DNA of 53,944 bases. It comes from a virus. Below, in pieces: positions 7,119 to 51,694 of the stretch; position 1 is the first letter of the stretch; each line of letters starts with the position of its first letter. The stretch covers positions 1-53,944 of IMG/VR virus record IMGVR_UViG_3300032144_000013; one strand, given 5' to 3'. A program made the position numbers and the translations under genes. Below the pieces are notes generated by a model, which saw nothing but the letters and a program-made list of their open reading frames with translations, had not been told where the DNA came from and did not search any database.

Positions 7119-7357
7119 GGTCGTCCGAAGTAGACCTTGAATGCGCCGACGTGCAGAGTCCAACCGCATGTCTTGTAGGTGGCGTCGGGCCATATCTCGG
7201 CTCTCCGCTCCGGCCAGCCATGCCAGCACAAATGAGCGTGGTTTCCACCAGAAGACCAGCCCACGCGAACAGGCCACCACCGATACATCACGGGACGGTC
7301 CGGTCTCCTCCAGCTCTTGAAGAAGCCACGGAAGTCCCACAAAGGTTTTCTGCTCAC
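7115..7357 (-). CDS. Trp-rich small hypothetical protein
   Basis: An 80-aa protein starting at GTG 7355-7357 with GAGGGAGG upstream. It is unusually rich in Trp, Arg and His (FFKSWRRPDRPVMYRWW; HLCWHGWPERRAEIWPD) and resembles a compact beta protein. Its TGA overlaps the ATG of the secreted 519-aa gene, so the pair is probably translationally coupled. No family recognised. Confidence 0.6.
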   Translation of the reverse strand: MSRKPLWDFRGFFKSWRRPDRPVMYRWWPVRVGWSSGGNHAHLCWHGWPERRAEIWPDATYKTCGWTLHVGAFKVYFGRP

Positions 7358-7376
7358 CCGATCGCCTCCCTCGTGC

Positions 7377-9021: not shown

Positions 9022-9771
9022 TCAAGCAGCAGTCGGAACGAGTACCGCATACGCCTCGCTGGGATCCGCCTTGCTGCCGGTGATGAATCCCCGGCCAGCC
9101 GTCCCCCAGGTCGTGTTCCACGAATTGTCGATCCAGTATCCGAGCTGGTTGTTCACCACGTCCGGCTCGACGGCGCACACCAGGTGCCCCCACCAGTCGA
9201 AGGCGACCGAGCAGGGAATGTCCCGGACCAGCAGGGTCATCACCGAGTAGAAGTCGTCGGGGATGTCCGCGAAGTCAGTGACGTTGAACGCCTTCCGGGC
9301 CTCGCGCGACTGCTCGTTGTCGTACCGCTTGTCAATCGCATGCTCGGGCCAGAGAGATTCCGGAGCGACGCCCCACTTCTTGATCCCGGCCAGGCACTCC
9401 CCGCCCCAGCCGCCGACGTTCTTGTAGTTCTTGATGAGGCAGGCCACGCTCGCCGGCGACAGCGATACGTGCTCCTCGCCCATCTGCAACCGGGTCAGTT
9501 CGAGCATCCGAATCGCTCCGAACGCCCAGCAGTAATTGGTCCCGTTCTGGTTCTTGATCCCGACGCCGTTCGCCTTGCTCCGCGCGATCAGTCCGATCCG
9601 GTTCGCCTTCCGGAAAGCGATCTGCTCTTTGAGTTCCGTCGCCGTCAGCGGGGTTCCCGTCCACGCGGCCGCGTACGGCAGCTTCCCGAACTCGACCGGG
9701 CGCGGCTCCAGTCCCTTTGAGAAACCGTCCGGCGCGGGAGGCGGATTGTTCGGGTCGATTACAAAGCTCAC
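9022..9771 (-). CDS. papain-like (C1 family) cysteine peptidase
   Basis: The start is GTG 9769-9771, which overlaps the preceding TGA (GTGA) and has GGGGAGG five bases upstream, giving 249 aa. Catalytic residues are all visible: Gln75 and Cys81 in NQNGTNYCWAF, His196 in WWGHLVCAV, and Asn216 in YWIDNSWN, with the usual glycine-rich end (GTAGRGF). No signal peptide is seen, and there is only a short N-terminal part in place of a long propeptide. It could process virion proteins, act on the host envelope as a proteolytic lysin, or target host proteins. C1 peptidases are rare in tailed phages. Confidence 0.85.
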   Translation of the reverse strand: MSFVIDPNNPPPAPDGFSKGLEPRPVEFGKLPYAAAWTGTPLTATELKEQIAFRKANRIGLIARSKANGVGIKNQNGTNYCWAFGAIRMLELTRLQMGEEHVSLSPASVACLIKNYKNVGGWGGECLAGIKKWGVAPESLWPEHAIDKRYDNEQSREARKAFNVTDFADIPDDFYSVMTLLVRDIPCSVAFDWWGHLVCAVEPDVVNNQLGYWIDNSWNTTWGTAGRGFITGSKADPSEAYAVLVPTAA

Positions 9772-10214
9772 TTGAACCTCCCCATCAGGGCGATCGTCGC
9801 TTCGACGCCATCCGGCAGCGGCCCGGTGAATCCCTTTGTTCCGTGAGCGATGTGAATCCACGGCAGCGAATCGAACTTCAGCTTGAACGCTGCCGCTTCC
9901 GTCGCCGTCATCCCCGCCGTCGGCGTGTCCTTGTCGAACACCCGCAGGTGAGCATTGTTCGCCTTCGCCCAATCACGCACGTCCTGCGAGGTCAGCGCCG
10001 CGAAGTGACCGCGCGACAGTTCCCCACGCATCCGGGTCTCGGTCTCTTCGATGATGACCACCGTCAGTCCTTCAGACGGAAACGGCGCACCATCGACGAC
10101 AACCGGGTCCGGCTTGGGATCCGGCTTCGGGTCGGGAGTCGGCGGTTTCCCCCCGGCCAGTGCCAGGAACAGCACCAGCGCCACAACGATCAGCGACTTG
10201 GCGTCAATTTGCAT
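9768..10214 (-). CDS. membrane-anchored or secreted protein with possible thioredoxin-like fold
   Basis: A 148-aa protein from the ATG at 10212-10214. The N-terminus MQIDAKSLIVVALVLFLALAGG is a signal anchor, followed by a DPKPDPKPDP linker. The globular part has a beta-alpha-beta pattern and a LPWIHIAHG segment resembling the cis-Pro loop of thioredoxin folds, but no CxxC, so redox catalysis is unlikely. It overlaps the upstream gene by 11 bases and is coupled to the peptidase gene by GTGA. It may be a partner or regulator of that protease. Confidence 0.6.
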   Translation of the reverse strand: MQIDAKSLIVVALVLFLALAGGKPPTPDPKPDPKPDPVVVDGAPFPSEGLTVVIIEETETRMRGELSRGHFAALTSQDVRDWAKANNAHLRVFDKDTPTAGMTATEAAAFKLKFDSLPWIHIAHGTKGFTGPLPDGVEATIALMGRFK

Positions 10215-18907: not shown

Positions 18908-19426
18908 TCACCTGGTACACGACGGCTTTCTTTGCGCGACACAGATCGTGTCGTTGTGCGCTCCGCCGTGACGGACCAGGAGGATTTCCCCGGTCGGCCA
19001 TTCCTTCCCGAATCCGCTCGACTGCCAGCCGAACGACAACGCCACTCCACCCGGCCTCAGCAGCTCTGACAGCGGCAACCGCACCCGGCGGTACAGCGCC
19101 GCACTCTGTGTGTCCGACTGACCAGGTACGAGACCAACGCCCCGGTAGCAGTCCGCAATCTGCCTCGGTGAGTACGGCGGGTCGAACAGCACCGCATCAA
19201 CCTTGCCGCGCCACTCTTCCAGGAGCGATTCGCACCAGGTGACCGCATCCTGTCCGCCGTCCGCCAAGTCATTCCGCAGAGTTCCGATGGCGCTCTTGCC
19301 GCAGAACGGATCGACGATGACCTCGCAGCCGTTCAGCCACCGCTCCAGGAAGCCCCGGACCGGCGGCAGGTCGAACGTCCAACGGGACGGCATCGACCAT
19401 GCTGTGCTGAACTGCGTCGTCGCCAT
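18908..19426 (-). CDS. DNA methyltransferase (DPPY type)
   Basis: A 172-aa protein from the ATG at 19424-19426. IVDPFCGKSAIGTL (about residues 37-50) is the SAM-binding motif I, and AVLFDPPYSPRQI has the catalytic DPPY at 82-85. Motif I precedes DPPY, and no target-recognition domain is apparent, so this is a minimal N6-adenine or N4-cytosine methylase. It may protect phage DNA from host restriction or be an orphan regulator. No cognate nuclease is adjacent. Confidence 0.8.
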   Translation of the reverse strand: MATTQFSTAWSMPSRWTFDLPPVRGFLERWLNGCEVIVDPFCGKSAIGTLRNDLADGGQDAVTWCESLLEEWRGKVDAVLFDPPYSPRQIADCYRGVGLVPGQSDTQSAALYRRVRLPLSELLRPGGVALSFGWQSSGFGKEWPTGEILLVRHGGAHNDTICVAQRKPSCTR

Positions 19427-19514
19427 CTGCACCACTCCCATTATTTCGCGCGATAAATTTCAGCCCGTTCCGCAATCGATTCCGACGCAAGGTGCGGCCC
19501 GCCAGTCACGGCGT

Positions 19515-31303: not shown

Positions 31304-31374
31304 TTCCCTCGGTTGGAATCGAACCAACGACTCGGCGATGTAAGCGCCGCGCGTTGCCATTACGCCACGAGGGA
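31304..31374 (-). tRNA. tRNA-Val (anticodon UAC)
   Basis: 71 nt with a perfect 7-bp acceptor stem (TCCCTCG/CGAGGGA), D arm, 5-bp anticodon stem CGGCG/CGCCG, loop CTTACAT with U33 and anticodon TAC, a 4-nt variable region, 5-bp T stem GTTGG/CCAAC and an A discriminator. No CCA is encoded. Located between the integrase and the HTH gene. Confidence 0.85.
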
Positions 31375-31599
31375 GCACGCGCCACCAACGTAGCTTATCC
31401 AGATTCGGAAATCTTGCAAGTCCTTACCGTGTAAGAGTTTACGGCGTTGAGTGAGGCGCGCTAACCCTGAGTGGAGGCGCAAAGGTGGATGACTGTTGCT
31501 GCTGCGTAGGCGGTAACGGGTGCTGCGTCGGTATTTTTCCGATGCGCCGTATCGGGTGGATTTCTTCGGCACTGGAGGCTCGCAAATGCGATTTAACAA

Positions 31600-32592
31600 A
31601 TGTCTCAATCTCACCTCGCTGCACGCCGGGCCACATCGGGCGTTCGCATGCAAGATGCCTTCGACGGCACAGCCGCGCGCCGTCTCAATGCGCGGACCTG
31701 TTTCGACACGCTCTACAAGCTGTGGGCACCAGACCTGGCCCCACGCACGGAGCGCCGCTACAGGCATGAGCTGAACCGATGGGAAAAGCTCACCAACGAT
31801 CCGCCGTTGTCCGAGATTTCGACAACGCTCTATCAGCAGTTCCGGGCATCCTCTTCCCAGCTCGGACACGCTGCCGGCACAACCGAATCGACCCTGAGAT
31901 TCATCCGGCAACTGATGCGCTGTGCCCTCGCGCACGGGGCCATCAACGTCATCCCCGATCGGGGCCGCGCCCGGCGCATTGACGCTCCACAGCCGCACCC
32001 GCCGTCGATCGACGAACTCGACCGAATGTTCCGGGTCTGCGAGGTGGCGCGCTGGCCGCGACTCCACGTTCCCACGAAAATATTCTGGCGAAGCTGGATG
32101 GCCGTGGCACTATGGACGGCACTGCGCCGCGAGGACATTTTCTGGCGGTTGGCACTGGAGCACATCGACTTCAAGGAAAGCCGCATCCTGTTCCGGGCGC
32201 ACAAGAGCAGCGTCCCGCATACGTTCCCCTTGAACGAGATCGTCACCCGCCACATTCGGGCAATGGTCCCCACATTCTCCCACAACACCCGCCGCGTGCT
32301 GTTCAACCCGTCGCGAAGTCCGCACCTGATTCAGCGCGAGCTTGACCGGATGGCAGACGCTGCTGAAGTGCGCAGGATCACCCCGCAGAACTTCCGGCAG
32401 GCGGGAATCAATATGTGGACGATTGCCGATCCCAGGGCCGGAGAAGTCATCCACGGCGTCGGAATCCCCCGCGTCCTGAGCCACTACCTCGACCGGCTCC
32501 AGATTTTGAAGAACGCCGCCGACAACGTGATTGTCCCCGCGTCAATGACGGAGTTTGGCTCTGGTCGCCGGCAGGGGACGCTGTTCGATTGA
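31600..32592 (+). CDS. int: tyrosine-type integrase/recombinase
   Basis: A 330-aa plus-strand protein. The core-binding N-terminus includes LAPRTERRYRHELNRWEKL. The catalytic part has ALRREDIFW (Arg176 or Arg177), AHKSS (Lys202), and TPQNFRQAG in the place of the usual HxxR (Arg266), with VLSHYLDRL carrying a candidate Tyr296 nucleophile. The HxxR His is replaced by Gln. A start at ATG 31648 is possible. GGAGG lies upstream, but it fits another frame better. Very likely the phage integrase. Confidence 0.75.
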   Translation: MSQSHLAARRATSGVRMQDAFDGTAARRLNARTCFDTLYKLWAPDLAPRTERRYRHELNRWEKLTNDPPLSEISTTLYQQFRASSSQLGHAAGTTESTLRFIRQLMRCALAHGAINVIPDRGRARRIDAPQPHPPSIDELDRMFRVCEVARWPRLHVPTKIFWRSWMAVALWTALRREDIFWRLALEHIDFKESRILFRAHKSSVPHTFPLNEIVTRHIRAMVPTFSHNTRRVLFNPSRSPHLIQRELDRMADAAEVRRITPQNFRQAGINMWTIADPRAGEVIHGVGIPRVLSHYLDRLQILKNAADNVIVPASMTEFGSGRRQGTLFD

Positions 32593-32715
32593 CGACGTAC
32601 CACGCCGTTGCGCTGGCTGTGCGGCACGGGCTGATCTAGCGTCCAGATTGACAACGCCGGCCGCGCGATGCGACGATGATGCCGTCAACGGGCCGCTCTC
32701 TCGGGGGAAGAATCT

Positions 32716-33849
32716 ATGAAGCGTTCTGGCTTCACGATGATTGAAATGCTCGTTGTGCTCTCGATCATCCTGCTGCTGTTCGGCCTGACAATGACCGTCA
32801 TTACGGCGTCGATGGACAACGCCAGGGCCGACGCGACGCGAACGACGGTCAGCTACATCGACAAGGCGATCGAGGACCGCATCGAAGCGCTGGGTCGGAA
32901 CAATGTCCGATCACACGCCCGCGCGTTCATGGTGGCGTATAACGTAATCAACGCGGACAAGATCGACGAACCGCTGGCTCGCGTCATTGTCACCAAAGAC
33001 CGATTCCAGCAGGCGCTGCCGACCCGATTGGAGGATATGTTCGGTCTCGACGGCACTCCGGGGACTCAGGACGACAGCCCGCTCTGGAGAGTCTGGAAGA
33101 AGACGATGAACGCGAATGGCATCGTCACCACTGACGCCGACATCCGGCCGACCGGGCACATCCGGGAGAACGAGAACGCCGAACTGCTCTATCTGTTTCT
33201 GACTGAAGGCGCGACCTACGGAGAGATACGGTTCCGCAGCGACGACATTATCACGCGGCACCTACGGGATTCGCCGATCGACACTGACGGCAACGGGTCG
33301 TTCGACAGACCCGGCAACGGAATCCCCGAGATCATCGACGAGTGGGGCAACCGGATCCGGTTCTACGGCTGGACTCACAAGCTCACGCGGCCAGGTGGCG
33401 GAACTACGGACATCAATCAGCCGCTGTTCACGGCAACGGCTGGACACATGCTGAACACGATCAACCCTCCGGCGTCCCCAGTGCCGTTCACGATGACCGG
33501 CCACATGGACAGTCCGCTGAATCAGGATCCAGACGACCCGTACGGGCGGCTCTCTGCCGCACAGAACTCAACCGGCTTCGCGTCTGCCCCGTACCAGATT
33601 CGCCTGCCGTCAGGTGCAGTCGTGACGTGCAAGGCGTTCAACGAGGACAACTATCACCCTCTCGACACGTACAGCATTCCGCTTGTTGTGTCGGCTGGAC
33701 CGGACGGAGTTCTCGGTCTGGTAGAGCCGACCGGCTTTGATCCGATGACCGGAAACTATGACGCGGACCTGCGCACGGCCGAACCGCTTGGGTATCGTGC
33801 TGCGTGGCGCACGGACGCTGTCTACGACAACATCACGGCGCACAACTAG
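32716..33849 (+). CDS. type II secretion/type IV-like pseudopilin
   Basis: A 377-aa plus-strand protein with GGGGGAAG upstream. MKRSGFTMIEMLVVLSIILL is a class-III prepilin leader (G5, F6, E10 after the cleavage site). A calcium-loop-like DTDGNGSFDRPGNG and DEWGNRIRFYG follow, the D-x-WG phrase of pseudopilins. It lies alone between integrase and the tail block, as an accessory (moron) gene. The host prepilin peptidase would have to process it. A tail or conversion role is possible. Confidence 0.82.
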   Translation: MKRSGFTMIEMLVVLSIILLLFGLTMTVITASMDNARADATRTTVSYIDKAIEDRIEALGRNNVRSHARAFMVAYNVINADKIDEPLARVIVTKDRFQQALPTRLEDMFGLDGTPGTQDDSPLWRVWKKTMNANGIVTTDADIRPTGHIRENENAELLYLFLTEGATYGEIRFRSDDIITRHLRDSPIDTDGNGSFDRPGNGIPEIIDEWGNRIRFYGWTHKLTRPGGGTTDINQPLFTATAGHMLNTINPPASPVPFTMTGHMDSPLNQDPDDPYGRLSAAQNSTGFASAPYQIRLPSGAVVTCKAFNEDNYHPLDTYSIPLVVSAGPDGVLGLVEPTGFDPMTGNYDADLRTAEPLGYRAAWRTDAVYDNITAHN

Positions 33850-34583
33850 CCGGACATCCCGCGCAGTCTGGTCGGAATCTCCTTGCTTCCCGAAATCACG
33901 TCAGTCTCCAAAGTTCCATCGGGACCAACGACGTACATCATCGGCGTGGCGAACTTCCCGTACCTGAGCGAGATTTCCCACTGCTTCTGCATGACGATCG
34001 GGAACGTCAGTCCGAGCTTTTCCGCCTTCGCGACAGTCGCCGCTGCGTCTCTCCGGCTAATCATCAGCACCTTGACGCCGCGCTCATGCGCCGCCTGCAC
34101 CTCGGGCACCACGGCATCGCACGGACCGCAGTTCGGGTCTGAGAACACCAGAACCAACCGCTCCCCGGCATAGTCAGCCAGTGCAACTTCCGCACTTCCG
34201 TTTGCCAGCGGGAGCTTGAACCCCGGCGCGACGGTTCCGGACTTGAGTCCGTTGCGCTCGATTTTGCTTCGCGCGAGCGATGGATCTGGCTGCTTTCCTT
34301 CCGGGACTTCTTCCCGCTTTTTTTTAGCGGCAGCGACGGCTGATTCCGCCTTCATACGCTTCAGAGACACGAGCGGCAGCGTGACGACCTCCACCCGCTC
34401 GCCGTTGAAGAACGTACCGAAATCGTCGTGACAGTCCGGGCAATGCCACTTGCCAATGATGAATCCGCCACTGTCCGAGGTCTTGGACGCAACCATCTTC
34501 GGTTTCATGTACTGCATGTTCGGGTGCTGGCACACCTCCACAACGCCATCGACGGTTTCCATCTCTTCGGTTTGCATGTCCAT
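33846..34583 (-). CDS. thioredoxin/TlpA-like protein with N-terminal zinc ribbon
   Basis: A 245-aa protein. CQHP plus WHCPDCHDD form an N-terminal zinc site, a charged linker reaches about residue 110, then APGFKLPLANG, LVLVFSDPNCGPCDAVVPE (CGPC redox pair) and FATPMMYVVGPDG with the cis-Pro. No signal peptide, so probably cytosolic or in the particle. Its TAG shares bases CTAG with the stop of the convergent pseudopilin gene. It may reduce tail disulfides or follow the Cys-rich gene upstream. Confidence 0.76.
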   Translation of the reverse strand: MDMQTEEMETVDGVVEVCQHPNMQYMKPKMVASKTSDSGGFIIGKWHCPDCHDDFGTFFNGERVEVVTLPLVSLKRMKAESAVAAAKKKREEVPEGKQPDPSLARSKIERNGLKSGTVAPGFKLPLANGSAEVALADYAGERLVLVFSDPNCGPCDAVVPEVQAAHERGVKVLMISRRDAAATVAKAEKLGLTFPIVMQKQWEISLRYGKFATPMMYVVGPDGTLETDVISGSKEIPTRLRGMSG

Positions 34584-34586: not shown

Positions 34587-36326
34587 TTACGCCGGCACGT
34601 TGTCACAGGTTTCTGAACCGGCCGCGCACTCACAGAAGCGAGCAGCGCACGGCGCGGTGTCGAAGGCTTTCGAGTTGTCCGATCCCGACAGAGCAAAGCA
34701 CTCTGCCTCCGATCCGACGTACGTACATTCGCAATCGTCGTCGCTGGAGCAGTCTTCGGAGCCGCCGCCGACAGTCGAGACGCAGCACGAGTTGCAGCCG
34801 GGGATTTCGGCGCAAGTAGTCCCCGGCCCCCAACTGAATTCGTCAGCGCCAACGCAATCAGATGCTGGCACCTCGTTACACGTTCCGTTCGACCGGCAGC
34901 AGGCGACGTTGCACTCGTCACAGGACGCTGCGGGCGTGCCGCTAACCGCCAGGCAGGCCGCGTAGCCGATGGCAGCGCATGTCCCGTCAGGCATGCAGCA
35001 GACGTCGGCGAAGCAGTCACCGGGAGAACAATCGACCCCGGCATTCCACTCCCCACCGATGTCTTCGCAAATCGTCTGGTCGATGTAGTCGTAGCAGGCG
35101 TTCTGGTAGCAGCAGTAGCCAAGCGGATTCGCCGGCGCTGCCGTGCTCGTGCAATCCACGTCGACGCACGCACCGGAAGACGTCGGCGAGATCGGAGCGC
35201 CGGGAGCTTTCAGGGTGAGAGTGTCGGGGCCGTCGCAGAAGTCTTCAGCATGCGCCATCGCCGTGAGGGTGATATCCGAGCCGTCGTACGGAAACGAGAC
35301 GCTTCCAGAGTACGCAGCCACCGGTGAATGCGTCCCGCAAGTAAGAGACGTCCCCCCGATGCCATCAGACGTGATCCTTGTTCCACCCTGATAGATGTTG
35401 AGAATGAGATTGCACTCGTCGCCTCCGAAAAAGCCTCCTCCTCCGCCACCAGTCGCGGACATCTCCGCGTGAAAGACTCGGTCGCACGTTGTGTCGTCGG
35501 AGCTGAACCACGAGTTGCAGCGGTTTCCAGTCAGAGGATCGTCGTCGAGATCGGGATTCGTTTTGATCTCATCGTTCTTCCAACGACACGTACCGCTGCT
35601 CCGCAGAACGAACGTCGCATTGAACAGTTCGCAGGCATAGTCGCCGCACGCGAACGGTCCGGTCCCTTGAACCCATCCGTCACTCTCCACCAGGAACGTG
35701 ATGTCCGACGCAAAGCAGTTCGTACACTCGAACCCGCCCAAGTCCCCGCTCGGCGCAACCGGCTTCAGGCACGCATAGCAGGACAAACGGGAGCGGTTGA
35801 TTCCCTCGAACAGTCCGTACGGCTTCGCCAGGATGAACTTGTTGTCGCAGTTGCACTGGAACCCATCCATTCCGTATTCAAGGCAGACGTCATCGCCGCT
35901 GTTGTCAGTCTCGACTACCAGACGCATGATGGTTCGGCCGTCAACGTCGGCTTCGATGTAGAACACGAAGACATCGTCGTTGTCGGGGATCGTAAACGGC
36001 GTACTGATCCAGTCGTCGGACCCCGCGTAGAAGAAGTCCAGTTCCTCTTCCGACGCCCCGGAGATCGGGTTTGTCATCGTAAAATGCGGGTGCCCCTCAC
36101 AGCACTCCGTCGCGCTCGGCAACGTCACGCCCGCGATGCAGTGGCCGCAGTCGCACTCGACGCCATCGGGGAAGCCGTTGTCGGGGGCGCTGGTGCTGGT
36201 GCCGCCATACCGACGGCTGATCTGCTCCGGCACGCGAAGATAGGCACGCGGCGTACCCTCCACGCGGCGCGTTGCTGCTGCGATGCGCTTCGCGTCGTTC
36301 GTGCGGAAGATGCCGTAGTCGGCCAT
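34587..36326 (-). CDS. Cys-rich tail or receptor-binding protein
   Basis: A 579-aa protein with about 60 Cys. The first 390 residues are a virion-like domain set with paired Cys. The last 175 residues hold four repeats of a CC-x-x-x-GxC-type unit (CCMPDGTCAAIGYAAC; CCRSNGTCNEVPASDC), as in extracellular proteins of planctomycetes. Many disulfides imply work outside the cell. It sits at the end of the tail operon and next to a thioredoxin-like gene. Receptor binding is inferred. Confidence 0.68.
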   Translation of the reverse strand: MADYGIFRTNDAKRIAAATRRVEGTPRAYLRVPEQISRRYGGTSTSAPDNGFPDGVECDCGHCIAGVTLPSATECCEGHPHFTMTNPISGASEEELDFFYAGSDDWISTPFTIPDNDDVFVFYIEADVDGRTIMRLVVETDNSGDDVCLEYGMDGFQCNCDNKFILAKPYGLFEGINRSRLSCYACLKPVAPSGDLGGFECTNCFASDITFLVESDGWVQGTGPFACGDYACELFNATFVLRSSGTCRWKNDEIKTNPDLDDDPLTGNRCNSWFSSDDTTCDRVFHAEMSATGGGGGGFFGGDECNLILNIYQGGTRITSDGIGGTSLTCGTHSPVAAYSGSVSFPYDGSDITLTAMAHAEDFCDGPDTLTLKAPGAPISPTSSGACVDVDCTSTAAPANPLGYCCYQNACYDYIDQTICEDIGGEWNAGVDCSPGDCFADVCCMPDGTCAAIGYAACLAVSGTPAASCDECNVACCRSNGTCNEVPASDCVGADEFSWGPGTTCAEIPGCNSCCVSTVGGGSEDCSSDDDCECTYVGSEAECFALSGSDNSKAFDTAPCAARFCECAAGSETCDNVPA

Positions 36327-41570: not shown

Positions 41571-42218
41571 TCACGCCTCCACTGGTTGCTGTGCACGACC
41601 GGGAACCAATGCCCCGAGGTCAATCCGTCGGAAGTGCCCACACCGCACGTTGCCATGCGCCACGATGCGACACCCCGCGTCCTTCGCGCGACGGCAGAAG
41701 TCCACGTCGTCGCTGGTTGACTCGAAATGCCCGTCTTCGTTGAGCCAGCTCGGCCACTGGAACCACGCACCCGGATTGCCGACTCGCCCGAACACGTCAC
41801 GTTGAATCAGCATGCAGCCCGTCGCCACACGGTCCGCCTCAATCACCCCGTCGAACCACTGGCGCACCCAGTCGCCGTCCACTCGCACGGCAATCGATGG
41901 AACGATCCGCCGCCCTTGTTCAGCGAGGAACACGTAGCAGCCACCAGCAATGTCTGCGTCGGCTTCAACCAGGCGCGTAATCGTGTCCGGTGGAATGCAC
42001 ACGTCGTCATCAATGAACAGCAGGTGCGTGCAGTCGCTCGCCAGGAACGTCGCCACGACACGATTGCGTCCGATTGCCACGCCGTACCGCTCGATGCACC
42101 GCGTGTAGCGACACTCGATGCCTTGCGCCTCAGCCTGCTGCATCGCGGACGTAACGGCGTCCTTGACCTCGTCCTGCAAGGCCGTGTCGCGTGTCAGGAT
42201 GGCACACAGGACATTCAC
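41571..42218 (-). CDS. glycosyltransferase-like protein (GT-A fold)
   Basis: A 215-aa protein. NVLCAILTRDTALQ, IGRNRVVATFLASDCTHLLF and FIDDDVCIPPDTITRLV place the DDD (DxD) motif that binds sugar-nucleotide and metal; WLNEDGHFESTSDDVDFCRR is the acceptor-side acidic stretch. Set among head and tail genes, it probably glycosylates a virion protein. Its sugar is unknown. Confidence 0.78.
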   Translation of the reverse strand: MNVLCAILTRDTALQDEVKDAVTSAMQQAEAQGIECRYTRCIERYGVAIGRNRVVATFLASDCTHLLFIDDDVCIPPDTITRLVEADADIAGGCYVFLAEQGRRIVPSIAVRVDGDWVRQWFDGVIEADRVATGCMLIQRDVFGRVGNPGAWFQWPSWLNEDGHFESTSDDVDFCRRAKDAGCRIVAHGNVRCGHFRRIDLGALVPGRAQQPVEA

Positions 42219-42586
42219 GCCGTCTGCTCCATCGCCCGGACCTTCACGCCCGTTGGGAATCCACCGTCGTCAACAATTGGCATTGCCGGTCCATCGCAAC
42301 TGACTTCCCGGTTCCCGAAACTGTGCAGCGTCATCTTCATGTCACTCGTGATCGCCAGCGGTTTCGTGCCCCAGTTGAATTCGACCACCCAGCCGACCGA
42401 CCCTTGCACCTGCTCCGACTGAACGACCTCTCGGGTGCTCATCGCCCGGCAGAACGCGAAGCTCGTCTTGAAGAACTCCACGTAACTGGGGATCTGCTCG
42501 TTGGCTGCGTCCTGCGTGTAAACCGGCTTCTTTACAGTCACCTTGTGCCGCCGCTTGCCGATGTCGTCGCACTTGCACGAGGTCAC
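42215..42586 (-). CDS. head-tail adaptor/closure protein
   Basis: A 123-aa protein with DIGKRRHKVTVKKPVYTQDA and GWVVEFNWGTKPLAI and an end of strands, as in the head-closure/stopper family of siphoviruses (SPP1 gp16-like). Its place next to the connector and gp10 agrees. It starts by an ATGA overlap. Confidence 0.7.
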   Translation of the reverse strand: MTSCKCDDIGKRRHKVTVKKPVYTQDAANEQIPSYVEFFKTSFAFCRAMSTREVVQSEQVQGSVGWVVEFNWGTKPLAITSDMKMTLHSFGNREVSCDGPAMPIVDDGGFPTGVKVRAMEQTA

Positions 42587-43164
42587 TTCGGCACCCGGAA
42601 CGAATAGTTGTCCAACAGCGGCTTAACACCGAACGGGATCTCGCTCATGTCGCAACCGCCCGCCGTGCGGTGCTGATACCAGTGCGCCACCAGCATCAAC
42701 AGCGCCGTCTTGATCGCCTTCGGAACCGCACTCGCCGCCCCGTAACCAGCCGTGAATGTCACAGTCACGTCGTTGCGGAACCCGCGTACCGCCGGCCAGG
42801 ACTGGTTGTAGGCCGGATAGATCAGACCCGGTTTCGCAACCACGTCCGCAATCCACTGAGTCGTCTCCGTCAGCGTCTGAGTGACGCCGCTGTTGTCCAC
42901 ATACGAAATCGCAGTCACGTCGAGCACGGGATTCGGATGCAGCGGGATCTGCGTGCAGTGGAAGTCGTGCATCCGCATCTTCCACGTCGCCGTCACGAAC
43001 TGAGACCAGCAGTAGTCCTGCCCCCACAGCGTCGCCGCGTGAATCAGTCCGTCCACGACTGCGGTCTCTTCCGGAGAATCGATCCGGCAGTGCGCAGCCA
43101 CTTCCGTCCACGAAATCGGCGTTTCGTTGGGTGCGACGGTCTGTTCGTAAGTGGCACGCGACAA
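42583..43164 (-). CDS. head-tail connector (gp6-like)
   Basis: A 193-aa protein. ISWTEVAAHCRIDSPEETAV and DGLIHAATLWGQDYCWSQF match the gp6-like connector family of HK97 phages. It forms the ring below the portal. It is followed without a gap by the adaptor. Confidence 0.78.
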   Translation of the reverse strand: MSRATYEQTVAPNETPISWTEVAAHCRIDSPEETAVVDGLIHAATLWGQDYCWSQFVTATWKMRMHDFHCTQIPLHPNPVLDVTAISYVDNSGVTQTLTETTQWIADVVAKPGLIYPAYNQSWPAVRGFRNDVTVTFTAGYGAASAVPKAIKTALLMLVAHWYQHRTAGGCDMSEIPFGVKPLLDNYSFRVPK

Positions 43165-43167
43165 TGG

Positions 43168-44358
43168 CTAAATCTCCTGCTTCTTGCGGGTGCAGTGACC
43201 CGCCCGCGCGTGCTTGTTCCACCACTCCGTGATGTGGCGATGGACCGGCTTCATTTCTTCGTCGTATTCCGACACGACCAACTCCAGGTGTCCAATGCGC
43301 ACATCAGGCGCGACATAGACGGAATGACCGGCAGCCTTCCACTTGTCCCAGAACGTGATGTCGTCGTCCCGTCGGCCCTCGCCCCACTCCCCGTTCGCGT
43401 CAGGGACGGCGTGCAGCCACGGTTTCGGCATGTCCGCGAGACATTTCACCCGCAGCAGCGTCAGGCCGAAGTGCGCGGTATCAACACGCACCGGATCCCA
43501 CGTCACTTCCGCCTCGCGCTTGCCGGCGATCCCCATGAGCGGGGTTTCCGCGCCGCGACGCATTTGCAGAGCTGCTATTGCGTCGATATCTTGGCGCTGC
43601 GCGAGGATTCTCAGAAGCCGCTCGACATGACACGGGAGAATCATCGAGTCGTAGTCGAGCGTCAGCAGCCAATCGATCCCCTCTGCCAGTGCCCGCTGGA
43701 AACCAGCCTGAATGTTCTGGCCCCAGAAGCATCCGGTATGCGTCTCGATCGGGATGCCGTGTGCGTGCAGGGCTTCGGTGATTGACAGCCATGCGTCGTT
43801 CCATCCGACGCGAGGCAGACCCATCGTCGCGCGCACCTTGACGTCCACAGACGTCGCTGCAGGACGCTCCCCCTTGTCGGCCTCCAGGTTCAGGCTGATG
43901 GCGTCGAACGACGCGAGGTCCGTGTTCTGACTGGACCAGTGCCGGACGTCGTGGAAGCCGAATGTCTCCAAGTAGCCACGCAGGCGATTCTCGTCCCACG
44001 CCGACTTGTGGAAATCGTCGGCGTCAGTCTGGCCCCCCATCAGGTAGTACGCCCACTTCGGATCGGACTCTGTCAGGAATGCCACCTTCCGCACGTCAGG
44101 AACGCTGATCCGCAGCCTCCCACCGGGACGAAGCACACGCCGCCACTCTTCCAGCGCCTTCAGCACCTCCGCAAACGACAGGTGCTCCAGCATGTGGACG
44201 CAGCGGATTTCCTCGACGCTGTTGTCCGCATAAGCGAGCGGGTACGCTTCCGTTCCGAGCTTGCGATCGATCGCCGTGAAACCGGGAATGACCGTATCGC
44301 CCGCACCGATGTTGAGGCGGATCAGTCCGTCGGCAGGAGGTGAAAGCGTGTCATGCAT
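43168..44358 (-). CDS. SAM-methyltransferase and glycosyltransferase fusion
   Basis: A 396-aa protein. The N-terminal 160 residues have LIRLNIGAGDTVIPGFTAID (SAM motif I), CVHMLEHLSFAEVLKALEEW and RVLRPGGRLRISVPD, a class I methyltransferase of the sugar/natural-product type. The C-terminal half has WLLTLDYDSMILPCHVERLL, a GT-A like DxD (DYDS), and WDPVRVDTAHFGLTLL. Its leader has a 7-bp GAGCCGC/GCGGCTC inverted repeat and no obvious ribosome site. It may methylate and glycosylate a virion glycan. Confidence 0.78.
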   Translation of the reverse strand: MHDTLSPPADGLIRLNIGAGDTVIPGFTAIDRKLGTEAYPLAYADNSVEEIRCVHMLEHLSFAEVLKALEEWRRVLRPGGRLRISVPDVRKVAFLTESDPKWAYYLMGGQTDADDFHKSAWDENRLRGYLETFGFHDVRHWSSQNTDLASFDAISLNLEADKGERPAATSVDVKVRATMGLPRVGWNDAWLSITEALHAHGIPIETHTGCFWGQNIQAGFQRALAEGIDWLLTLDYDSMILPCHVERLLRILAQRQDIDAIAALQMRRGAETPLMGIAGKREAEVTWDPVRVDTAHFGLTLLRVKCLADMPKPWLHAVPDANGEWGEGRRDDDITFWDKWKAAGHSVYVAPDVRIGHLELVVSEYDEEMKPVHRHITEWWNKHARAGHCTRKKQEI

Positions 44359-44464
44359 GAGAGTTGATCCGCATAGTGAGCCGCGCACGGATGTAAGCGG
44401 GACGACAATTGATCCCACGGGTGCGGCTCAATGCTCCGTGGTCGCCTGCCGCCCGCATTCCGCA

Positions 44465-44902
44465 TCAGAGCACTACGACCGTGTCGTTCGTCGAACCCCG
44501 CAGAGCTGCGGTTCCCGGCAACGACTCTTCCTGACGTGACAGGATGGCAATCGCCGCCGCCGTCACGTGGTCGTTCGTGGTGGTCTCGGAGGTGATCGCG
44601 AGCTTGAGGTACCGCTTGCGAGCCTTCGTGTTGACGTGGAAGTTGGCTGCATGCGCCACCACCAGCGGCTCCGCCGTCAGCGTGCAGGAACTCGACCACG
44701 TCGCGAACGAACTGGTCGTGTCGCCTTCACTGACGACGATCGTCGGGCCAATGCCGTTCGTGTTGACCTCGATTCCCAGCGGAATCGTGATCGTCGCGAA
44801 GTCGCTGCCGAGCGTGTCGAGCGTGGCCGATCGCGTGGCACCGGCTGACTGCGTCGCAGCGGCCAGCATGACGGTCAGTTTTTGGCTGAAAGCGGGAATC
44901 AT
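44465..44902 (-). CDS. head protein (decoration-like) beside major capsid
   Basis: A 145-aa beta-rich protein (DFATITIPLGIEVNTNGIGP; NFHVNTKARKRYLKLAITS). Genes of this size right after the capsid gene are often decoration or head proteins. The start overlaps the previous stop (TAATG). No motif to prove it. Confidence 0.6.
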   Translation of the reverse strand: MIPAFSQKLTVMLAAATQSAGATRSATLDTLGSDFATITIPLGIEVNTNGIGPTIVVSEGDTTSSFATWSSSCTLTAEPLVVAHAANFHVNTKARKRYLKLAITSETTTNDHVTAAAIAILSRQEESLPGTAALRGSTNDTVVVL

Positions 44903-45132
44903 TACTCAATCTCCTCGATAGTTTCGGAGCGGCGCTGACGACGCTTCGGGGCTTCTGTGGACTCAGCACGCGGCTCGCTGATGCCGGCCGCGACAAGTGG
45001 CCTCGCAGTGACGAACTCCGCGACTCCACGCTGCACGAGTGCATCGTGGACCCCGTAGCCCATCGTTTCGTCTGTCGATCCGATGGGCTTTCGGTACGGA
45101 TTCGCTCGCAGGAATCGAATCGTGGTTTGCAT
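44902..45132 (-). CDS. small basic head-region protein
   Basis: A 76-aa protein whose ATG overlaps the capsid gene's stop (TAATG). MQTTIRFLRANPYRKPIGST opens it and a Arg/Glu-rich tail closes it (KRRQRRSETIEEIE). It could be a small connector or packaging accessory protein. No family. Confidence 0.6.
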   Translation of the reverse strand: MQTTIRFLRANPYRKPIGSTDETMGYGVHDALVQRGVAEFVTARPLVAAGISEPRAESTEAPKRRQRRSETIEEIE

Positions 45133-46634
45133 TACGTGCCTGTTGCCAAGCCGACAATCGGGCCGACCGCAGACGCAGTACCGCAGCCATGCACGTTGAC
45201 GTCGAATCGTTCGGTGCCGCGCACCGCAATCTGGTTGCGCTCGAACACCGACTGACCGCCAATGGTGGCGTGCTCGCTGAAACTGATGCTGGTCTGCTGG
45301 CGGTCGCCGAACAGGGCGCCAAGGGCGAAGTTGCCCAGCACCGCCGTCACACCAGTCGTCGCCGTTGCGTTCGGGAATACCTGGCTGAACTCGACCGGGT
45401 AGCCCAGGAACAGCGGTCGCGGCCGTCGGTCTCCGTTGGACACCTCCATCGCGGTCACGCCGCCGGACGCCAGTTCCAGCTTCTGCATGACTTCGGCGAA
45501 ATAGGTCTTGTGACAGACCCACACCGCGCCGTTGTCAGCGTAGACCGGCAACTTGCCGACAACCGCGTGGAAGTCCGCGAGCACCTGCGCGGACCAGGTG
45601 TTCGACGTGCCCTGAATCTTCAGGCCCGCCGAATCCGTGCCCGCGCCGTCGATGCTGGTCAACAGGTTGCGAACACCCTGAATGCCGCCATAGGTGCTGG
45701 TCCCGTCACCGTTGAAACCGCACTGGTCTTCCTTCTCGGAAAACGCATAGGCGATCTCTCCGGCCAGCGCGTCACCGATGTTGATAACGGCATCGGCGCT
45801 AAGCTGGTTCGTCATGCGGGCCAGCACCATCAGGTCCTTCGCCGACAACTGCACGTCGTCCCAAGTCATGTTCGACTCGGTTCCAGCGTCGCTTTCGTTG
45901 ACGAAATACGCCGTCAGACCAGCGGACCTGCGCGGCTCGTGCTTGATGTCGCTCGTCATCGCCACGCTGCCGAACAGCCGGCGCACAAGGCCGTACTGCT
46001 CGCGCAGGTCGATGAGGTCGCGGCTGAACTCGTCGGGAACGAGGTAGTGCCCGCCGGTCGTCACGTCGGTCTCACCGTGCGCGACGTTCACCGGGTTCAT
46101 GTAGTTCTCAACGAACTGCTTGCTGTAGGCGAAGTTGTAGCGCCCCGGCAGGTCTTGCGAGACACGCGCCAGAACCCACTGCCCGAAGCGATAGGCCCGG
46201 TGCTCAGCGTCCAGACCATCGCGCGGCTTGCCGTTCGTGTCGCGGAAGTTCTGAAGGGCACCGGACCGCCGCACGTTGCGGGGGATCTTGAACCGGATCG
46301 TCGGTTCGCCGTCCTGGTTCTCGGTCTCGATTGGCAGGCCATTGCGAGCTGAGGGAGCCGGGGTTCCGGCGGTCGGCTGCGTGCGTCGGGCCTGCACCTT
46401 CGGGGTCATCGCCTCCGCGCGGTCGGCGCGGGCGTTCTTCATGGCGATGTCTTCCTCCAACTGCTCCTTCTGCTTCTGGAGCTCCTCGAACAGCGCCTTG
46501 AGATTGGCGTACTGCGTGCGCTGTTCATCGCTGAACGCGCCGTCGTTTTCGAGATTCGCCTGACGCTCGATCTCCGCCTGGTCGGCGTCGATCTTCTTCA
46601 TGCGTGCGATGAGTTCAGCGAGCTGCTTGTCCAT
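45132..46634 (-). CDS. major capsid protein (HK97 fold) with N-terminal coiled-coil scaffold
   Basis: A 500-aa protein. The first 100 residues form charged heptads (AELIARMKKIDADQAEIERQ; LFEELQKQKEQLEEDIA), the delta/scaffold domain removed by the head protease in HK97-type phages. The rest has FNGDGTSTYGGIQGVRNLL and STYGGIQG with VSNGDRRPRPLFLGYPVEF, typical of this capsid family. The ClpP-type protease upstream is the likely maturase. Confidence 0.88.
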   Translation of the reverse strand: MDKQLAELIARMKKIDADQAEIERQANLENDGAFSDEQRTQYANLKALFEELQKQKEQLEEDIAMKNARADRAEAMTPKVQARRTQPTAGTPAPSARNGLPIETENQDGEPTIRFKIPRNVRRSGALQNFRDTNGKPRDGLDAEHRAYRFGQWVLARVSQDLPGRYNFAYSKQFVENYMNPVNVAHGETDVTTGGHYLVPDEFSRDLIDLREQYGLVRRLFGSVAMTSDIKHEPRRSAGLTAYFVNESDAGTESNMTWDDVQLSAKDLMVLARMTNQLSADAVINIGDALAGEIAYAFSEKEDQCGFNGDGTSTYGGIQGVRNLLTSIDGAGTDSAGLKIQGTSNTWSAQVLADFHAVVGKLPVYADNGAVWVCHKTYFAEVMQKLELASGGVTAMEVSNGDRRPRPLFLGYPVEFSQVFPNATATTGVTAVLGNFALGALFGDRQQTSISFSEHATIGGQSVFERNQIAVRGTERFDVNVHGCGTASAVGPIVGLATGT

Positions 46635-46650
46635 TTCCGTCTCCGGGAAT

Positions 46651-46699
46651 GCCGGTGACGGACGGGTCCAGAAACGCCAAACGCCGGCGAGTCACCGGC
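46651..46699 (-). other. inverted repeat in the capsid mRNA leader
   Basis: GCCGGTGAC at 46651-46659 and GTCACCGGC at 46691-46699 are a perfect 9-bp inverted repeat with a 31-nt loop, just before the capsid start (46634). There is no U-tract, so it is a leader hairpin and not an intrinsic terminator; it may stabilise or regulate the capsid message. Confidence 0.5.
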
Positions 46700-46831
46700 A
46701 GGTTCACTAGGAATCTGCCGATAACTGGCCGGCGCTCGTGGCACCTGGACTCAGCTATCTCTGCCCCGCGATGCGTGAACTCAAAGGTTCATCGACTACC
46801 GCAGGCGGCCGTGAATGATTTGTCAGAACGC

Positions 46832-46861
46832 ATCTAAGAACAGGTCTGTATCACTTTGCAA
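46832..46861 (-). promoter_or_regulatory. candidate promoter for the capsid operon
   Basis: TTGCAA (46856-46861) and TTAGAT (46832-46837) on the minus strand are 18 bases apart. It lies just beyond the HTH gene end and 200 bases before the capsid ATG. The -35 matches the other candidate promoters of the window. Not verified. Confidence 0.45.
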
Positions 46862-47000
46862 TACCCGTTGTCGAGATTTTTTGAACTGTGGTTGGAGAGA
46901 CCCCGTACCGCCGCGCCGTGTCGCGCACGGAGGAATGCACCAGTGCCCGGAGGATCCGCTCGCGGTCTCGCTCGTCAATCGCGCGGCCCGGTGTCGCCAT
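46851..47000 (-). CDS. small HTH protein
   Basis: A 49-aa protein from the ATG at 46998-47000: RAIDERDRERILRALVHSSV and RDTARRYGVSPTTVQKI form a homeodomain-like/transposase-type HTH. Sited just before the candidate capsid promoter, it may regulate late genes. It overlaps the upstream gene by 26 bases. Confidence 0.62.
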   Translation of the reverse strand: MATPGRAIDERDRERILRALVHSSVRDTARRYGVSPTTVQKISTTGIAK

Positions 47001-47394
47001 CTTCGATCTCCAGTTCTGCCGCCACGGCAACCGCGACTTCCAGTTCCGGTGCGACTTCCTCACAAACGACTTCGGCGACAGGCACCGCACCGTCGAATCC
47101 CGGAACGATCTTGTCGGCTGTCAGCGCCAGCGCCTGAGTGCCCAGCCAGTCGTTGACGTGCCCAACCGCGTTCCGCTCGCGTTCGGAGAATGAATCGCCA
47201 CGACTGAACCGAAGCCGCAGCGCCACGTCGTCGGCCGCTGTATCTCCCATTGCCGCGCGAACGTATTCCACAACGCCAGCGTGCCACTCTTCGGCCACTG
47301 AGAAGTCGCCGAATGATGCCTGACCGCCTCCGCAGGCCGCGTCACCATCGCGTGCCAGCGCCAGCAACCCGTCGCGCACTTCCTGAACAGTCAT
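46975..47394 (-). CDS. hypothetical acidic protein
   Basis: A 139-aa protein with Val/Ala/Glu-rich end (VAEVVCEEVAPELEVAVAVA) and a helical start (MTVQEVRDGLLALARDGDAA). The last third is low in complexity. Placed between epimerase and HTH genes. No family recognised. Confidence 0.55.
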   Translation of the reverse strand: MTVQEVRDGLLALARDGDAACGGGQASFGDFSVAEEWHAGVVEYVRAAMGDTAADDVALRLRFSRGDSFSERERNAVGHVNDWLGTQALALTADKIVPGFDGAVPVAEVVCEEVAPELEVAVAVAAELEIEDGDTGPRD

Positions 47395-48446
47395 GCCACC
47401 TCCCTTTGCTGTTGTGCTTCGACGATCTCCGCGACCGTCTGTTCCAATGAATACTCCTGCCGCCAGTTCGGATAAGCCGCCTCAAACTTCCGCGTGTCCG
47501 TGATCCACCATTTGTGGTCGCCCATGCGCGGCTCTGCGACGTGCTCCAGAGTCATCTTCCGACCCGACAGCCGCTCCGCCATCGCAATCGCCTCCAGCAC
47601 GCTACAGGACCGCTCAGGACCGCCGCCGATGTTGTAGACCGCTCCCGGCGTCGGGTTGTTCACGTACTCCACGAACGCCCGCACGAGGTCGCTGGCGTGG
47701 ATGTTGTCGCGCACCTGCTTCCCGCCGTAGCCGATGACCTTGTACTGCGTCCCGTTCACGACGCACTTGCACAGGTACGACAGGAACCCGTGTTGCTCGA
47801 CGCCCGCGTGTCCCGGTCCCGTCAGGCACCCGCCCCGGAAACAGACGGTGTTCATGCCGAAGTAGCGGCCGTACTCCTGCACGTAGACGTCTGCGGCGAG
47901 TTTTGAGCAGCCGAATAGGGAATGGGTGCACTGGTCGATAGGTGTCAACTCGTCGAAGCCATGTGGAAACGATGGCACGTCAAATCGCGTCTCGTGGACA
48001 TGCATCGCTAACTGGTTCGGCCAGTCGCCGTAGACCTTGTTCGTGGAGCAGTGGACGAACGCTGCATGAGGGCACCATGCGCGCGTCATTTCCAGCATGT
48101 TCAGCGTGCCAGTCGCGTTTACGTGGAAGTCTGCGGTTGGGGCCGTGGCCGCCCAGTCATGCGAAGGTTGCGCCGCCGTGTGAATCACAGCCTCTATTTG
48201 GTCTCCATATCCCGCGAACATGTGCGAGTAACGGTCCGGTTCCCTTATGTCCGCTTGCACATGCCAATATCCGGGGCACAATCCGTGAAGGACTGCGGAG
48301 GTGTTGTCCGTGCACCCGCCCTCCCCGAAGAATTGGCGGCGACAGTTGTTGTCAATCCCGACAACGCGATACCCCAGCGCCGCGAACTGCCGCACCGCTT
48401 CCGATCCCACAAGCCCGGCGCTGCCGGTGACGATGACGGTTTTCAT
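47391..48446 (-). CDS. NAD-dependent sugar-nucleotide epimerase/dehydratase
   Basis: A 351-aa protein from the ATG at 48444-48446. MKTVIVTGSAGLVGSEAVRQ has the GxxGxxG NAD-binding loop; HTAAQPSHDWAAT, HCSTNKVYGD and HSLFGCSKLAADVYVQEYG cover the catalytic part with Lys in FGCSK, the Tyr position being Phe as in the CDP-tyvelose/paratose-epimerase-like group I recall. It likely makes a nucleotide sugar for the glycosyltransferases downstream. It stands within the head operon. Confidence 0.82.
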   Translation of the reverse strand: MKTVIVTGSAGLVGSEAVRQFAALGYRVVGIDNNCRRQFFGEGGCTDNTSAVLHGLCPGYWHVQADIREPDRYSHMFAGYGDQIEAVIHTAAQPSHDWAATAPTADFHVNATGTLNMLEMTRAWCPHAAFVHCSTNKVYGDWPNQLAMHVHETRFDVPSFPHGFDELTPIDQCTHSLFGCSKLAADVYVQEYGRYFGMNTVCFRGGCLTGPGHAGVEQHGFLSYLCKCVVNGTQYKVIGYGGKQVRDNIHASDLVRAFVEYVNNPTPGAVYNIGGGPERSCSVLEAIAMAERLSGRKMTLEHVAEPRMGDHKWWITDTRKFEAAYPNWRQEYSLEQTVAEIVEAQQQREVA

Positions 48447-48926: not shown

Positions 48927-49667
48927 TCACTCCGCAGGCGTGAACATCTCCCGACGCGAACGGATACGCTCCGCACGCGCTGCCTCACTTCGGCACAACC
49001 GCTGCTCCGCTTCCTTCCACAACGCAGTCACCGGCTGAGTCATCGACGCCTTCGCCGATGTTCGGCCGGTCACAACCTCGTCCACGAACTTCGCCGACAG
49101 CGCTTCCTTCGCCGTGAAAATCGTCCCATCAACCTTGCCCTTCATCCATGCCTTGATTGCGTCCATCGACTTGCCGGTTTTCGACTTGTAGGTCTTCGCA
49201 ATCGCCTCATCGATCTTGCCAAGCCAGTCCCGCGCCTCTTCCATGATGTCCACGTTCCCCACCGCAATGAGACTGGCGCGGTGGATGAACAGGTTCGCGT
49301 TCTCGTACATCTGCACCGGTGCCCCGGCCATTGCGATAATCGACGCTGCAGATCCTGCCATGCCCTCGATGATGGTCGTAATCGCCCCATCGTGAGCCAA
49401 CAGGGCGTTGTGGATCGTGATTCCGTCGTACGCCAGCCCGCCAGGCGAGTTGATCCGCACGTTGACGGCTCGCCCCTTGTTCTCGCGCAGGAACTGGCCC
49501 ACGCTCCGCGCGTCCATCGCCTCGTACGGGTTTCCGACTTCGCCGTACAGAACGATCTCGGCAGGATCATCGCCCTTCGCATTCCGCACGCCGACGCGGA
49601 ACGATGACGAACTGGCCGACTCCTGAGCCTTCGCGGACAGGAGAACCTCAATGAGCTGTGGCATCAC
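48927..49667 (-). CDS. ClpP-type (S14) head maturation protease
   Basis: A 246-aa protein. RINSPGGLAYDGITIHNALL is the core of ClpP-like proteases. Ser106 in GMAGSAASI and His129 in LFIHRASL are the catalytic pair. A charged C-terminal extension of about 60 residues probably binds the portal or capsid. It follows the portal gene directly. It should cleave the capsid scaffold. Confidence 0.87.
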   Translation of the reverse strand: MMPQLIEVLLSAKAQESASSSSFRVGVRNAKGDDPAEIVLYGEVGNPYEAMDARSVGQFLRENKGRAVNVRINSPGGLAYDGITIHNALLAHDGAITTIIEGMAGSAASIIAMAGAPVQMYENANLFIHRASLIAVGNVDIMEEARDWLGKIDEAIAKTYKSKTGKSMDAIKAWMKGKVDGTIFTAKEALSAKFVDEVVTGRTSAKASMTQPVTALWKEAEQRLCRSEAARAERIRSRREMFTPAE

Positions 49668-51694
49668 GTTCCTTTCTGCTGTTGACGTTCCTCGAACAGC
49701 CGCACGCCGCGCTCAACCATGTCGTTCGCCAGATTCGTCGAACGCTCGGTCCACTGGCTCTTGCGGTAGATGTGCACGAACTCGCGCAACTTGTCGTGGT
49801 AGTTGTCCGCCGCATGACCGTCCAATGACTTCAGATCACGCACGGAATCGCCTGAATACCGCTGCGAGGCCCATTCCAGGTCCAGAATGATGCCACACGC
49901 CTCGGATTCAGGCTGATATTCGCCCAGATTGGTGACGAAATAGCGGTTAAACCGGGCGTAGAACTCGGCTCGCGACTGCACCCATTCGGCAGGCTTCTCG
50001 GTCGCCTTGTCGAGCCACTTCCATTCCCAGTCAGAGAGTTTGTCGATCTCGCGCTTCAGCGCCTTCGCAAACACGCGCCGCGTGACTTCTCGCTCGGCTG
50101 CAACTGCAGCGTCCGCTTTCGCCTGTTCCGCCTCGAAAATCGCCCTTTCAGCCGCCAAACGCTCGATTTCCGCTGTATCACGGGCGTTTTCAGCATCTGC
50201 GCGGTGTCGCTGAAGTATCTCCTCCAGCGCATGCCCGTAAGTCGCAACGTCCTTCTCGCGCTGCTGTCGATCGAACTCCGCCCGCGCCGTCTCGCGCGCC
50301 TCTGCCGTCGCGTCGCGCAACAGCACCTTGTCCATGAACTCCCGCTGCTGATTGCGGATTTCCACCAGTGCAGCGGCTGTTTTCTCGTCTGGAGCACTGT
50401 TTTGCTGCGGAGTCGGCGGTGGAGCGGTCAACTTGTCGATCTGCGCCTGCGCCATCTCGCCGATCTTGTCCAGCGGCATGAGGTTGTTCGCCGGCACGAA
50501 GTATTGGTCGCCGCCCGGGATCGGGTTCATGTCCTCCATAGCGCGGATGTCGTTCGGCGATGCGGCGCCCATGTTGAACAGCACCTGATAGAACACGCCG
50601 CGCGCCGCAGAATCGCCCCGCAACAGCCCCATGACGTTGAATTTGAACCGATATCGCTTCCGCTCCTCTTCCGTCAGGAGCTGGCGGTACATCGCCTTCT
50701 CCCATCGGACGATCCACGGCAGCATCGTGTGCACGACGAACGAAATCGCCTCAGACTCGATGTTCGCCCACGTCGCCCGGCTCAGGTCGCCGATCATGTG
50801 CGGCGGGACTTTGTAGAGCCGCGCGATCTCGTTGACGCTGAACTGCCGCGCCTCCAGCAACTGCGCCGCCTCCGGCGCGAACGTCAGGTCCACCGGTTCC
50901 ATGCCGTCTTCGAGGATCAGCGTCTTGTAGTGGTTGTGTGCGCCGCCGTAGACCCGCTGCCACTGGTCCCGCAGCCGTTCCGCTGCCTCTTTTCCGACAG
51001 TCTTCGGGTGCTTCAGCGCCAGATTCGACACCGCTCCATTGCGGAAGAACGCTCCTGCATGCCGATCGGTCGCAATCGCGATTCCCAACGACTCAGCGCC
51101 CGCTACGGGGATCGGAACGCCAGTGATCCCGTTGCGCGACAGCACTCCCGTCACGTTGAGCATGTCGCTGGCCGGGATCGCCGACTCAGTCCCGTCGTCG
51201 TTCTTCGCGTAGTAGACGATCTCGCCCGGCTGTCCGACCTGGATATGCCGCCATTGCGACGGATTCACCGGGTTCCGCTCGATGTTGCACACCGGAATCC
51301 GGCTCGTGTGAATCGGCCACAGTGCAACGATCGACCCCGAGGTGTCGCGCTGAATCTCCGCGTAACCGTTCCCCCAGTTCACCTGCCGGTCCGACTGCGT
51401 ATCGAGCCACGAAACGATGTCCTGCTCAGGATTCGGGATGTCGTGCACAACCGGATAGAGCGGGTGATCGGTCGCTTTCCGCGTTGTCCTGTCGTCCACC
51501 TGCTCCAGCAGCATTAACGGCAGGCTCGCCAGTCCTTCTGTGATGACCCGAGTCGCCGCCATCGCTGCCGAGTAGGTCAGCGCCGTCTCCTGCGACACGC
51601 GCACGCCCGCCGACGTCGGAGCCGTGCCCAGCATCGGCCACCAGCTCGACTCAGACTTCATGTCCCAATTCGCCGTCGGCGCAAAGAACTTCAC
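49664..51694 (-). CDS. portal protein with long C-terminal coiled-coil extension
   Basis: A 676-aa protein from GTG 51692-51694. Residues 1-400 carry portal features (ETALTYSAAMAATRVITEGL; ADMLNVTGVLSRNG- and VNEIARLYKVPPHMIGDLS-like segments). Residues 400-560 are charged heptads (ARAEFDRQQREKDVATYGHA; AAERAIFEAEQAKADAAVAA) and the last 110 residues form another domain. HK97-type portals are near 400 aa, so this extension is large, perhaps a fused scaffold or internal head protein. Confidence 0.82.
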   Translation of the reverse strand: MKFFAPTANWDMKSESSWWPMLGTAPTSAGVRVSQETALTYSAAMAATRVITEGLASLPLMLLEQVDDRTTRKATDHPLYPVVHDIPNPEQDIVSWLDTQSDRQVNWGNGYAEIQRDTSGSIVALWPIHTSRIPVCNIERNPVNPSQWRHIQVGQPGEIVYYAKNDDGTESAIPASDMLNVTGVLSRNGITGVPIPVAGAESLGIAIATDRHAGAFFRNGAVSNLALKHPKTVGKEAAERLRDQWQRVYGGAHNHYKTLILEDGMEPVDLTFAPEAAQLLEARQFSVNEIARLYKVPPHMIGDLSRATWANIESEAISFVVHTMLPWIVRWEKAMYRQLLTEEERKRYRFKFNVMGLLRGDSAARGVFYQVLFNMGAASPNDIRAMEDMNPIPGGDQYFVPANNLMPLDKIGEMAQAQIDKLTAPPPTPQQNSAPDEKTAAALVEIRNQQREFMDKVLLRDATAEARETARAEFDRQQREKDVATYGHALEEILQRHRADAENARDTAEIERLAAERAIFEAEQAKADAAVAAEREVTRRVFAKALKREIDKLSDWEWKWLDKATEKPAEWVQSRAEFYARFNRYFVTNLGEYQPESEACGIILDLEWASQRYSGDSVRDLKSLDGHAADNYHDKLREFVHIYRKSQWTERSTNLANDMVERGVRLFEERQQQKGT

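Follow-up and report, generated by a model that had tools for sequence, protein, structure and literature searches.

The DNA analysed here, called the window throughout, is the whole 53,944-nucleotide stretch at positions 1 to 53,944 of IMG/VR virus record IMGVR_UViG_3300032144_000013, where terminal repeats were absent in a simple check. Judging from its genes, it probably belongs to an uncultured, temperate tailed phage, since it encodes an integrase, an Erf-type annealing protein, an exonuclease VIII-like protein and a RusA-like resolvase; a near-identity search of GenBank phages with the window gave no match. The late operon runs on the minus strand, starting with the terminase (53.9-51.9 kb), which is followed by the portal protein (49664-51694; phrog_12, E=2e-103), a ClpP-type prohead protease (48927-49667; CLP_protease, E=9e-22), two small genes and a sugar-nucleotide epimerase gene (47391-48446). 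After two further small genes come the major capsid protein (MCP) of the HK97 fold family (45132-46634; Phage_capsid, E=3e-34, phrog_10), a 77-aa protein, a Thr-rich protein of 145 aa (44465-44902; phrog_5707) and a methyltransferase-glycosyltransferase (MT-GT) fusion of 396 aa (43168-44358). Directly downstream of the fusion lies the head-tail connector Ad1 (42583-43164; phrog_442, E=2e-25), and then head closure Hc1 (42215-42586; Phage_HCP, E=3e-6, phrog_25), a small stand-alone glycosyltransferase (GT; 41571-42218), a tiny zinc-ribbon gene, a gp10-like gene and the tail genes. One of the small genes between epimerase and MCP (46851-47090) encodes a helix-turn-helix protein, and the same place in a related record, L002, is taken by a sigma-70 region 4 protein (5878-6111).

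A preliminary description of this DNA had proposed that three sugar-enzyme genes are woven through the head operon, and Pfam and PHROG matches bear this out: all three lie on the minus strand and alternate with the genes for portal, protease, MCP, phrog_5707 protein, connector Ad1 and Hc1. Most adjacent late genes share 1-4 bases or are at most 8 bases apart, with a spacing of -4 where the epimerase, Hc1 and GT genes start, of +3 between fusion and connector, and with the biggest gaps at 216, 175 and 106 bases. With overlaps of 1-4 bases at many gene junctions, and terminator-like sites no commoner than background (8, versus a mean of 10.2 in shuffled sequences), it is plausible that the head operon, including the three sugar genes, forms one transcript.

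The assignment of the fusion draws on Pfam and PHROG matches, invariant residues, a structural model and synteny, which together delimit a class I methyltransferase (MT) at about residues 13-160 and a GT-A glycosyltransferase at about 175-385. The N-terminal half matches Methyltransf_11 (E=4e-7) with 30.9 bits against a curated cut-off of 21.2, and it conserves the motif I region of class I SAM methyltransferases; ten motif-region residues, including G18, D31, E58, G79 and G80, are kept in at least 92% of 48 representatives. The C-terminal half has a weak match to phrog_1574 (E=0.004) and a predicted GT-A fold, with a DxD motif, a catalytic Asp region and a C-terminal His. Within it, D235, D237, D333, H296 and H357 are invariant in the 48 representatives and D331 is found in 98% of them, the invariance of the catalytic residues extending down to 26% identity. 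The best fold match of the AlphaFold2 model (pLDDT 83) is STIV A197 (E 7e-11, TM 0.73 by target length), followed by the collagen galactosyltransferase COLGALT1, which is a protein glycosyltransferase, as is GalNAc-T4, also listed together with many class I methyltransferases. On these grounds, both halves of the fusion look active.

The enzyme at 47391-48446 is an extended SDR (Epimerase, E=2e-38) that falls among the nucleotide-sugar epimerases of phrog_540 (E=9e-39), and its closest solved relatives by full-length sequence are the CDP-tyvelose 2-epimerases of PDB entries 1orr and 9rl0 (E 7e-45 and 8e-43). The NAD-binding TGxxGxxG of extended SDRs and the STNKVYGD stretch are present. In TaTyvE the catalytic triad consists of Thr124, Tyr164 and Lys168, with Tyr164 as the catalytic base (PMC13098431). 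The Thr and Lys are kept in the window protein as in the CDP-tyvelose 2-epimerases, but the Tyr of the YxxxK motif is Phe178 in ten of ten aligned sequences, namely the window and nine relatives (L002, L003 and L005-L011). The absence of this canonical residue makes the reaction uncertain, and the enzyme is therefore TyvE-like and is not classed as a TyvE. Relatives with the Phe include members of large glycan clusters in other viral contigs and phages, and a Tyr-less epimerase stands in the head operon in the window, L002 and L003.

The small GT is a GT2-like enzyme (Glyco_tranf_2_3, E=1.5e-6; Glycos_transf_2, E=2e-5; phrog_1574, E=1e-16), and its insertion between Hc1 and the gp10-like gene appears to be lineage-specific, being seen only in the window among the relatives compared. 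A pattern search of IMG/VR returned no relatives of this gene, and 11 relative records yielded just two weak matches. The interval that corresponds to its place holds a second MT-GT, after connector Ad1, in relative L075 (9532-10710).

The fusion occurs in hundreds of uncultured viral contigs. A context-blind search with a four-sequence alignment yielded at least 563 relatives, the best 80 of which were taken and dereplicated at 85% identity. In this set the nearest recognised upstream head gene is a phrog_5707 homologue in 42 of the 43 fusions with room, and connector Ad1 comes next downstream in 41 of 47 cases. The order MCP, Thr-rich protein, fusion and connector is kept in L002, L003 and L012, at identities of 55-74% for the MCP and 57-65% for the fusion. 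A narrow initial search of genome assemblies gave no matches; a broader one, over assemblies of bacteria and archaea, found 18 loci, nine with the GT domain and nine with the methyltransferase only. All nine GT-domain loci are phage contigs in bacterial assemblies, with the phrog_5707 protein directly upstream of the fusion and the same order on the MCP side, and all nine methyltransferase-only loci are without head genes. Since dozens of diverged contigs share this slot for the fusion, with the phrog_5707 gene on one side and connector Ad1 on the other, the arrangement of sugar genes among head genes is, by this comparison of gene orders, not due to chance. The tie to morphogenesis that had been deduced from the placement of the three genes is thus strongly supported for the fusion, which by its distribution is the conserved core of the module. 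Seen from the MCP side, the fusion lies within 4 kb in 46 of 62 dereplicated MCP relatives with room and is absent in the other 16, so it is dispensable. Protein searches of 50,697 GenBank phage records and of PLSDB plasmids found no full-length fusion; the matches were partial and covered the MT domain only, which leaves no isolate to hand. No paper describing this arrangement turned up in a literature search for FkbM or MT-GT genes among phage head genes.

The companions of the fusion vary from one lineage to another. In more than 50 loci the fusion is separated from the Thr-rich protein by a small FkbM-like gene, and in L002, L003 and L013 an FkbM domain is fused to the MT-GT; the window has neither, and L103 carries a sulfotransferase (6726-7472) in place of the FkbM gene. 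A GDP-mannose 4,6-dehydratase is encoded between portal and MCP in L013, L019, L051, L101 and L110 and after the fusion in L126 (four of the six above the NCBI cut-off), and L024 has a GDP-fucose-synthase-like gene, below the cut-off, between terminase and portal. That donor-making enzymes have been drawn into the head operon more than once speaks for a dedicated sugar. The differing distribution among relatives also leads us to reject a single inherited set of three sugar genes, as the preliminary description had envisaged: the fusion is the core, the epimerase represents one alternative among several nucleotide-sugar enzymes, and the small GT is found at its place only in the window. The methylated sugar suggested there is plausible, given the additional FkbM-type methyltransferases found alongside the fusion in many relatives.

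What the fusion could act on is suggested by its upstream neighbour. The Thr-rich protein, a candidate decoration protein and glycan acceptor, contains 14 Ser, 23 Thr and 6 Asn; its model (pLDDT 83) is a beta-sandwich with weak similarity to carbohydrate-binding modules and a weak fold match to the jelly-roll structure 3j4u of BPP-1 (TM ~0.46). Across 36 dereplicated loci, the divergence of the fusion correlates with that of this protein more than in any other of 13 gene pairs (Mantel r=0.885), and the partial Mantel rank correlation, controlled for the MCP and connector distances, is still 0.70 (a value reached in 0 of 500 permutations), a covariation that can also stem from linkage of adjacent genes or from shared clade history. 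The corresponding partial values are 0.48 for connector Ad1 and 0.04 for the MCP, so that the MCP as main acceptor is unsupported by covariation. Ser, Thr and Asn together make up 29.1% of the Thr-rich protein in phages that have the fusion, compared with 21.3% in those that lack it (p=1.3e-7), a difference confounded with clade, and there is a small difference in the MCP too (18.0% versus 16.6%). Since linkage or clade effects can mimic both signals, we take them as a lead to the acceptor and not as proof.

The enzyme families, the conserved GT residues, the fixed placement, the covariation with the Thr-rich protein and the parallel recruitment of nucleotide-sugar enzymes are the basis on which we consider it probable that this phage group glycosylates its own head. 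The acceptor would most likely be the Thr-rich neighbour, and the sugar would be O-methylated. In such a pathway, the SDR enzyme would alter a nucleotide sugar of the host, and the GT half of the fusion would transfer that sugar, or a related one, to a head protein, the likeliest target being a Thr or Ser of the jelly-roll-like product of 44465-44902. The MT half would then O-methylate, and thereby cap, the sugar, the small GT might add a further sugar in this lineage only, and the resulting coat could mask the particle or tune its attachment. A more ambitious version extends to the whole lineage: the fusion would place an O-methylated sugar on a co-evolving Thr-rich decoration protein, served by exchangeable donor enzymes (TyvE-like, GDP-mannose dehydratase or fucose-synthase-like) that include one Tyr-less but working SDR. 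We advance it tentatively, as somewhat under an even chance.

The closest competitor overlaps with head glycosylation of the Thr-rich protein, and holds that the virion is glycosylated but that the main acceptor is connector Ad1, the tail tube or the MCP. Mycobacteriophages Che8 (gp110) and Corndog (gp38) have their own GTs, and the glycosylation reported for them, according to PMC12363180, which cites Freeman et al. 2023, affects capsid and tail tube proteins. The tail-tube-like protein of the window is also rich in Ser and Thr (22.6%), and the partial correlation of connector Ad1 points the same way; the strongest link to the fusion is nevertheless that of the Thr-rich protein, and the value for the MCP is close to nil, which makes a different main acceptor possible but doubtful.

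Alternatively, the enzymes could ride in the late operon and modify the host surface (lipopolysaccharide, S-layer or capsule), blocking superinfection or changing adsorption. Surface-glycan clusters commonly contain GT2 and FkbM enzymes, and the epimerase has relatives in the large glycan clusters of other phages. Conversion genes, however, are usually found near the integrase, whereas the sugar genes here are fixed between head genes and away from it. Moreover, none of the three enzymes has a hydrophobic membrane segment (maximum Kyte-Doolittle 1.1), no flippase was recognised among the flanking late genes, and the fusion covaries with a structural gene, all of which makes a host-surface role unlikely. 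It is more improbable still that the genes are mere passengers of the late operon, with an auxiliary metabolic role or a lost activity and no part in the particle: the 16 MCP relatives without fusion and the missing catalytic Tyr of the epimerase would fit, but catalytic residues would hardly stay invariant at such low identities, nor would the fusion keep one slot and covary with one structural gene. Finally, phage GTs acting on DNA are known and the window has a DNA methyltransferase-like gene (18908-19441), but a T4-like glycosylation of hypermodified phage DNA is very improbable, as the sugar genes are located in the head operon and a scan of part of the early proteins recognised no gene for base hypermodification.

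Returning to the glycosylated head, virion glycosylation by phage-encoded enzymes is already known; what is unusual here is its wide spread and head-locked position. Like Che8 and Corndog, the window represents a tailed phage with its own GTs. Unlike in those mycobacteriophages, its GT is fused to a methyltransferase and fixed between candidate decoration-protein and connector genes, in the company of nucleotide-sugar enzymes; a tblastn search of the 50,697 phage records with the fusion and the small GT listed no mycobacteriophage. STIV, whose A197 comes closest in fold to the GT half of the fusion among solved structures, is an archaeal, non-tailed virus, and A197 lacks a methyltransferase domain and shares 13% identity with that half. 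According to a review (PMC10551542), A197 is essential and the MCP B345 is glycosylated, A197 being possibly the enzyme responsible, although its donor and acceptor are not established. In the methanogen virus vir323 (BK063679; our L196), a phrog_1574 gene (5899-6498), annotated as hypothetical, lies among small genes between the prohead protease and a tail protein, and encodes a stand-alone GT of ~25% identity without a methyltransferase domain.

To our knowledge, glycosylated virions have been demonstrated in only a few phages. If the present reading is true, glycosylation would belong to the core head traits of a phage group that is widespread in the environment and has no isolate, with a candidate acceptor named and functions suggested for phrog_1574 and phrog_5707. 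The compact MT-GT enzymes and the Tyr-less SDR subfamily can be assayed in vitro, and an acceptor candidate that adjoins the fusion can be tested directly by co-expression and intact mass measurement.

As for the hosts, of the nine bacterial-assembly loci with the fusion, three, from two assemblies, are in Phycisphaerae bins, and the others are in unrelated bins. Searches of 392 genomes from the phylum of a Phycisphaerae assembly and of 398 from that of a Betaproteobacteria assembly gave only MT-domain matches beyond the known phage contigs. On the plus strand of the window (31304-33849), a tRNA-Val, the integrase and a protein with a type IV pilin-like N-methylation motif stand side by side, possibly marking an attachment site and a host gene. 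At the end of the tail operon, a thioredoxin/AhpC-like protein (33846-34583) adjoins a very Cys-rich protein of 579 aa (34587-36326), and may help to form disulfide bonds in a component of the tail. The window also encodes, at 9022-9972, a cysteine protease of the papain family (C1), which is unusual for a phage.
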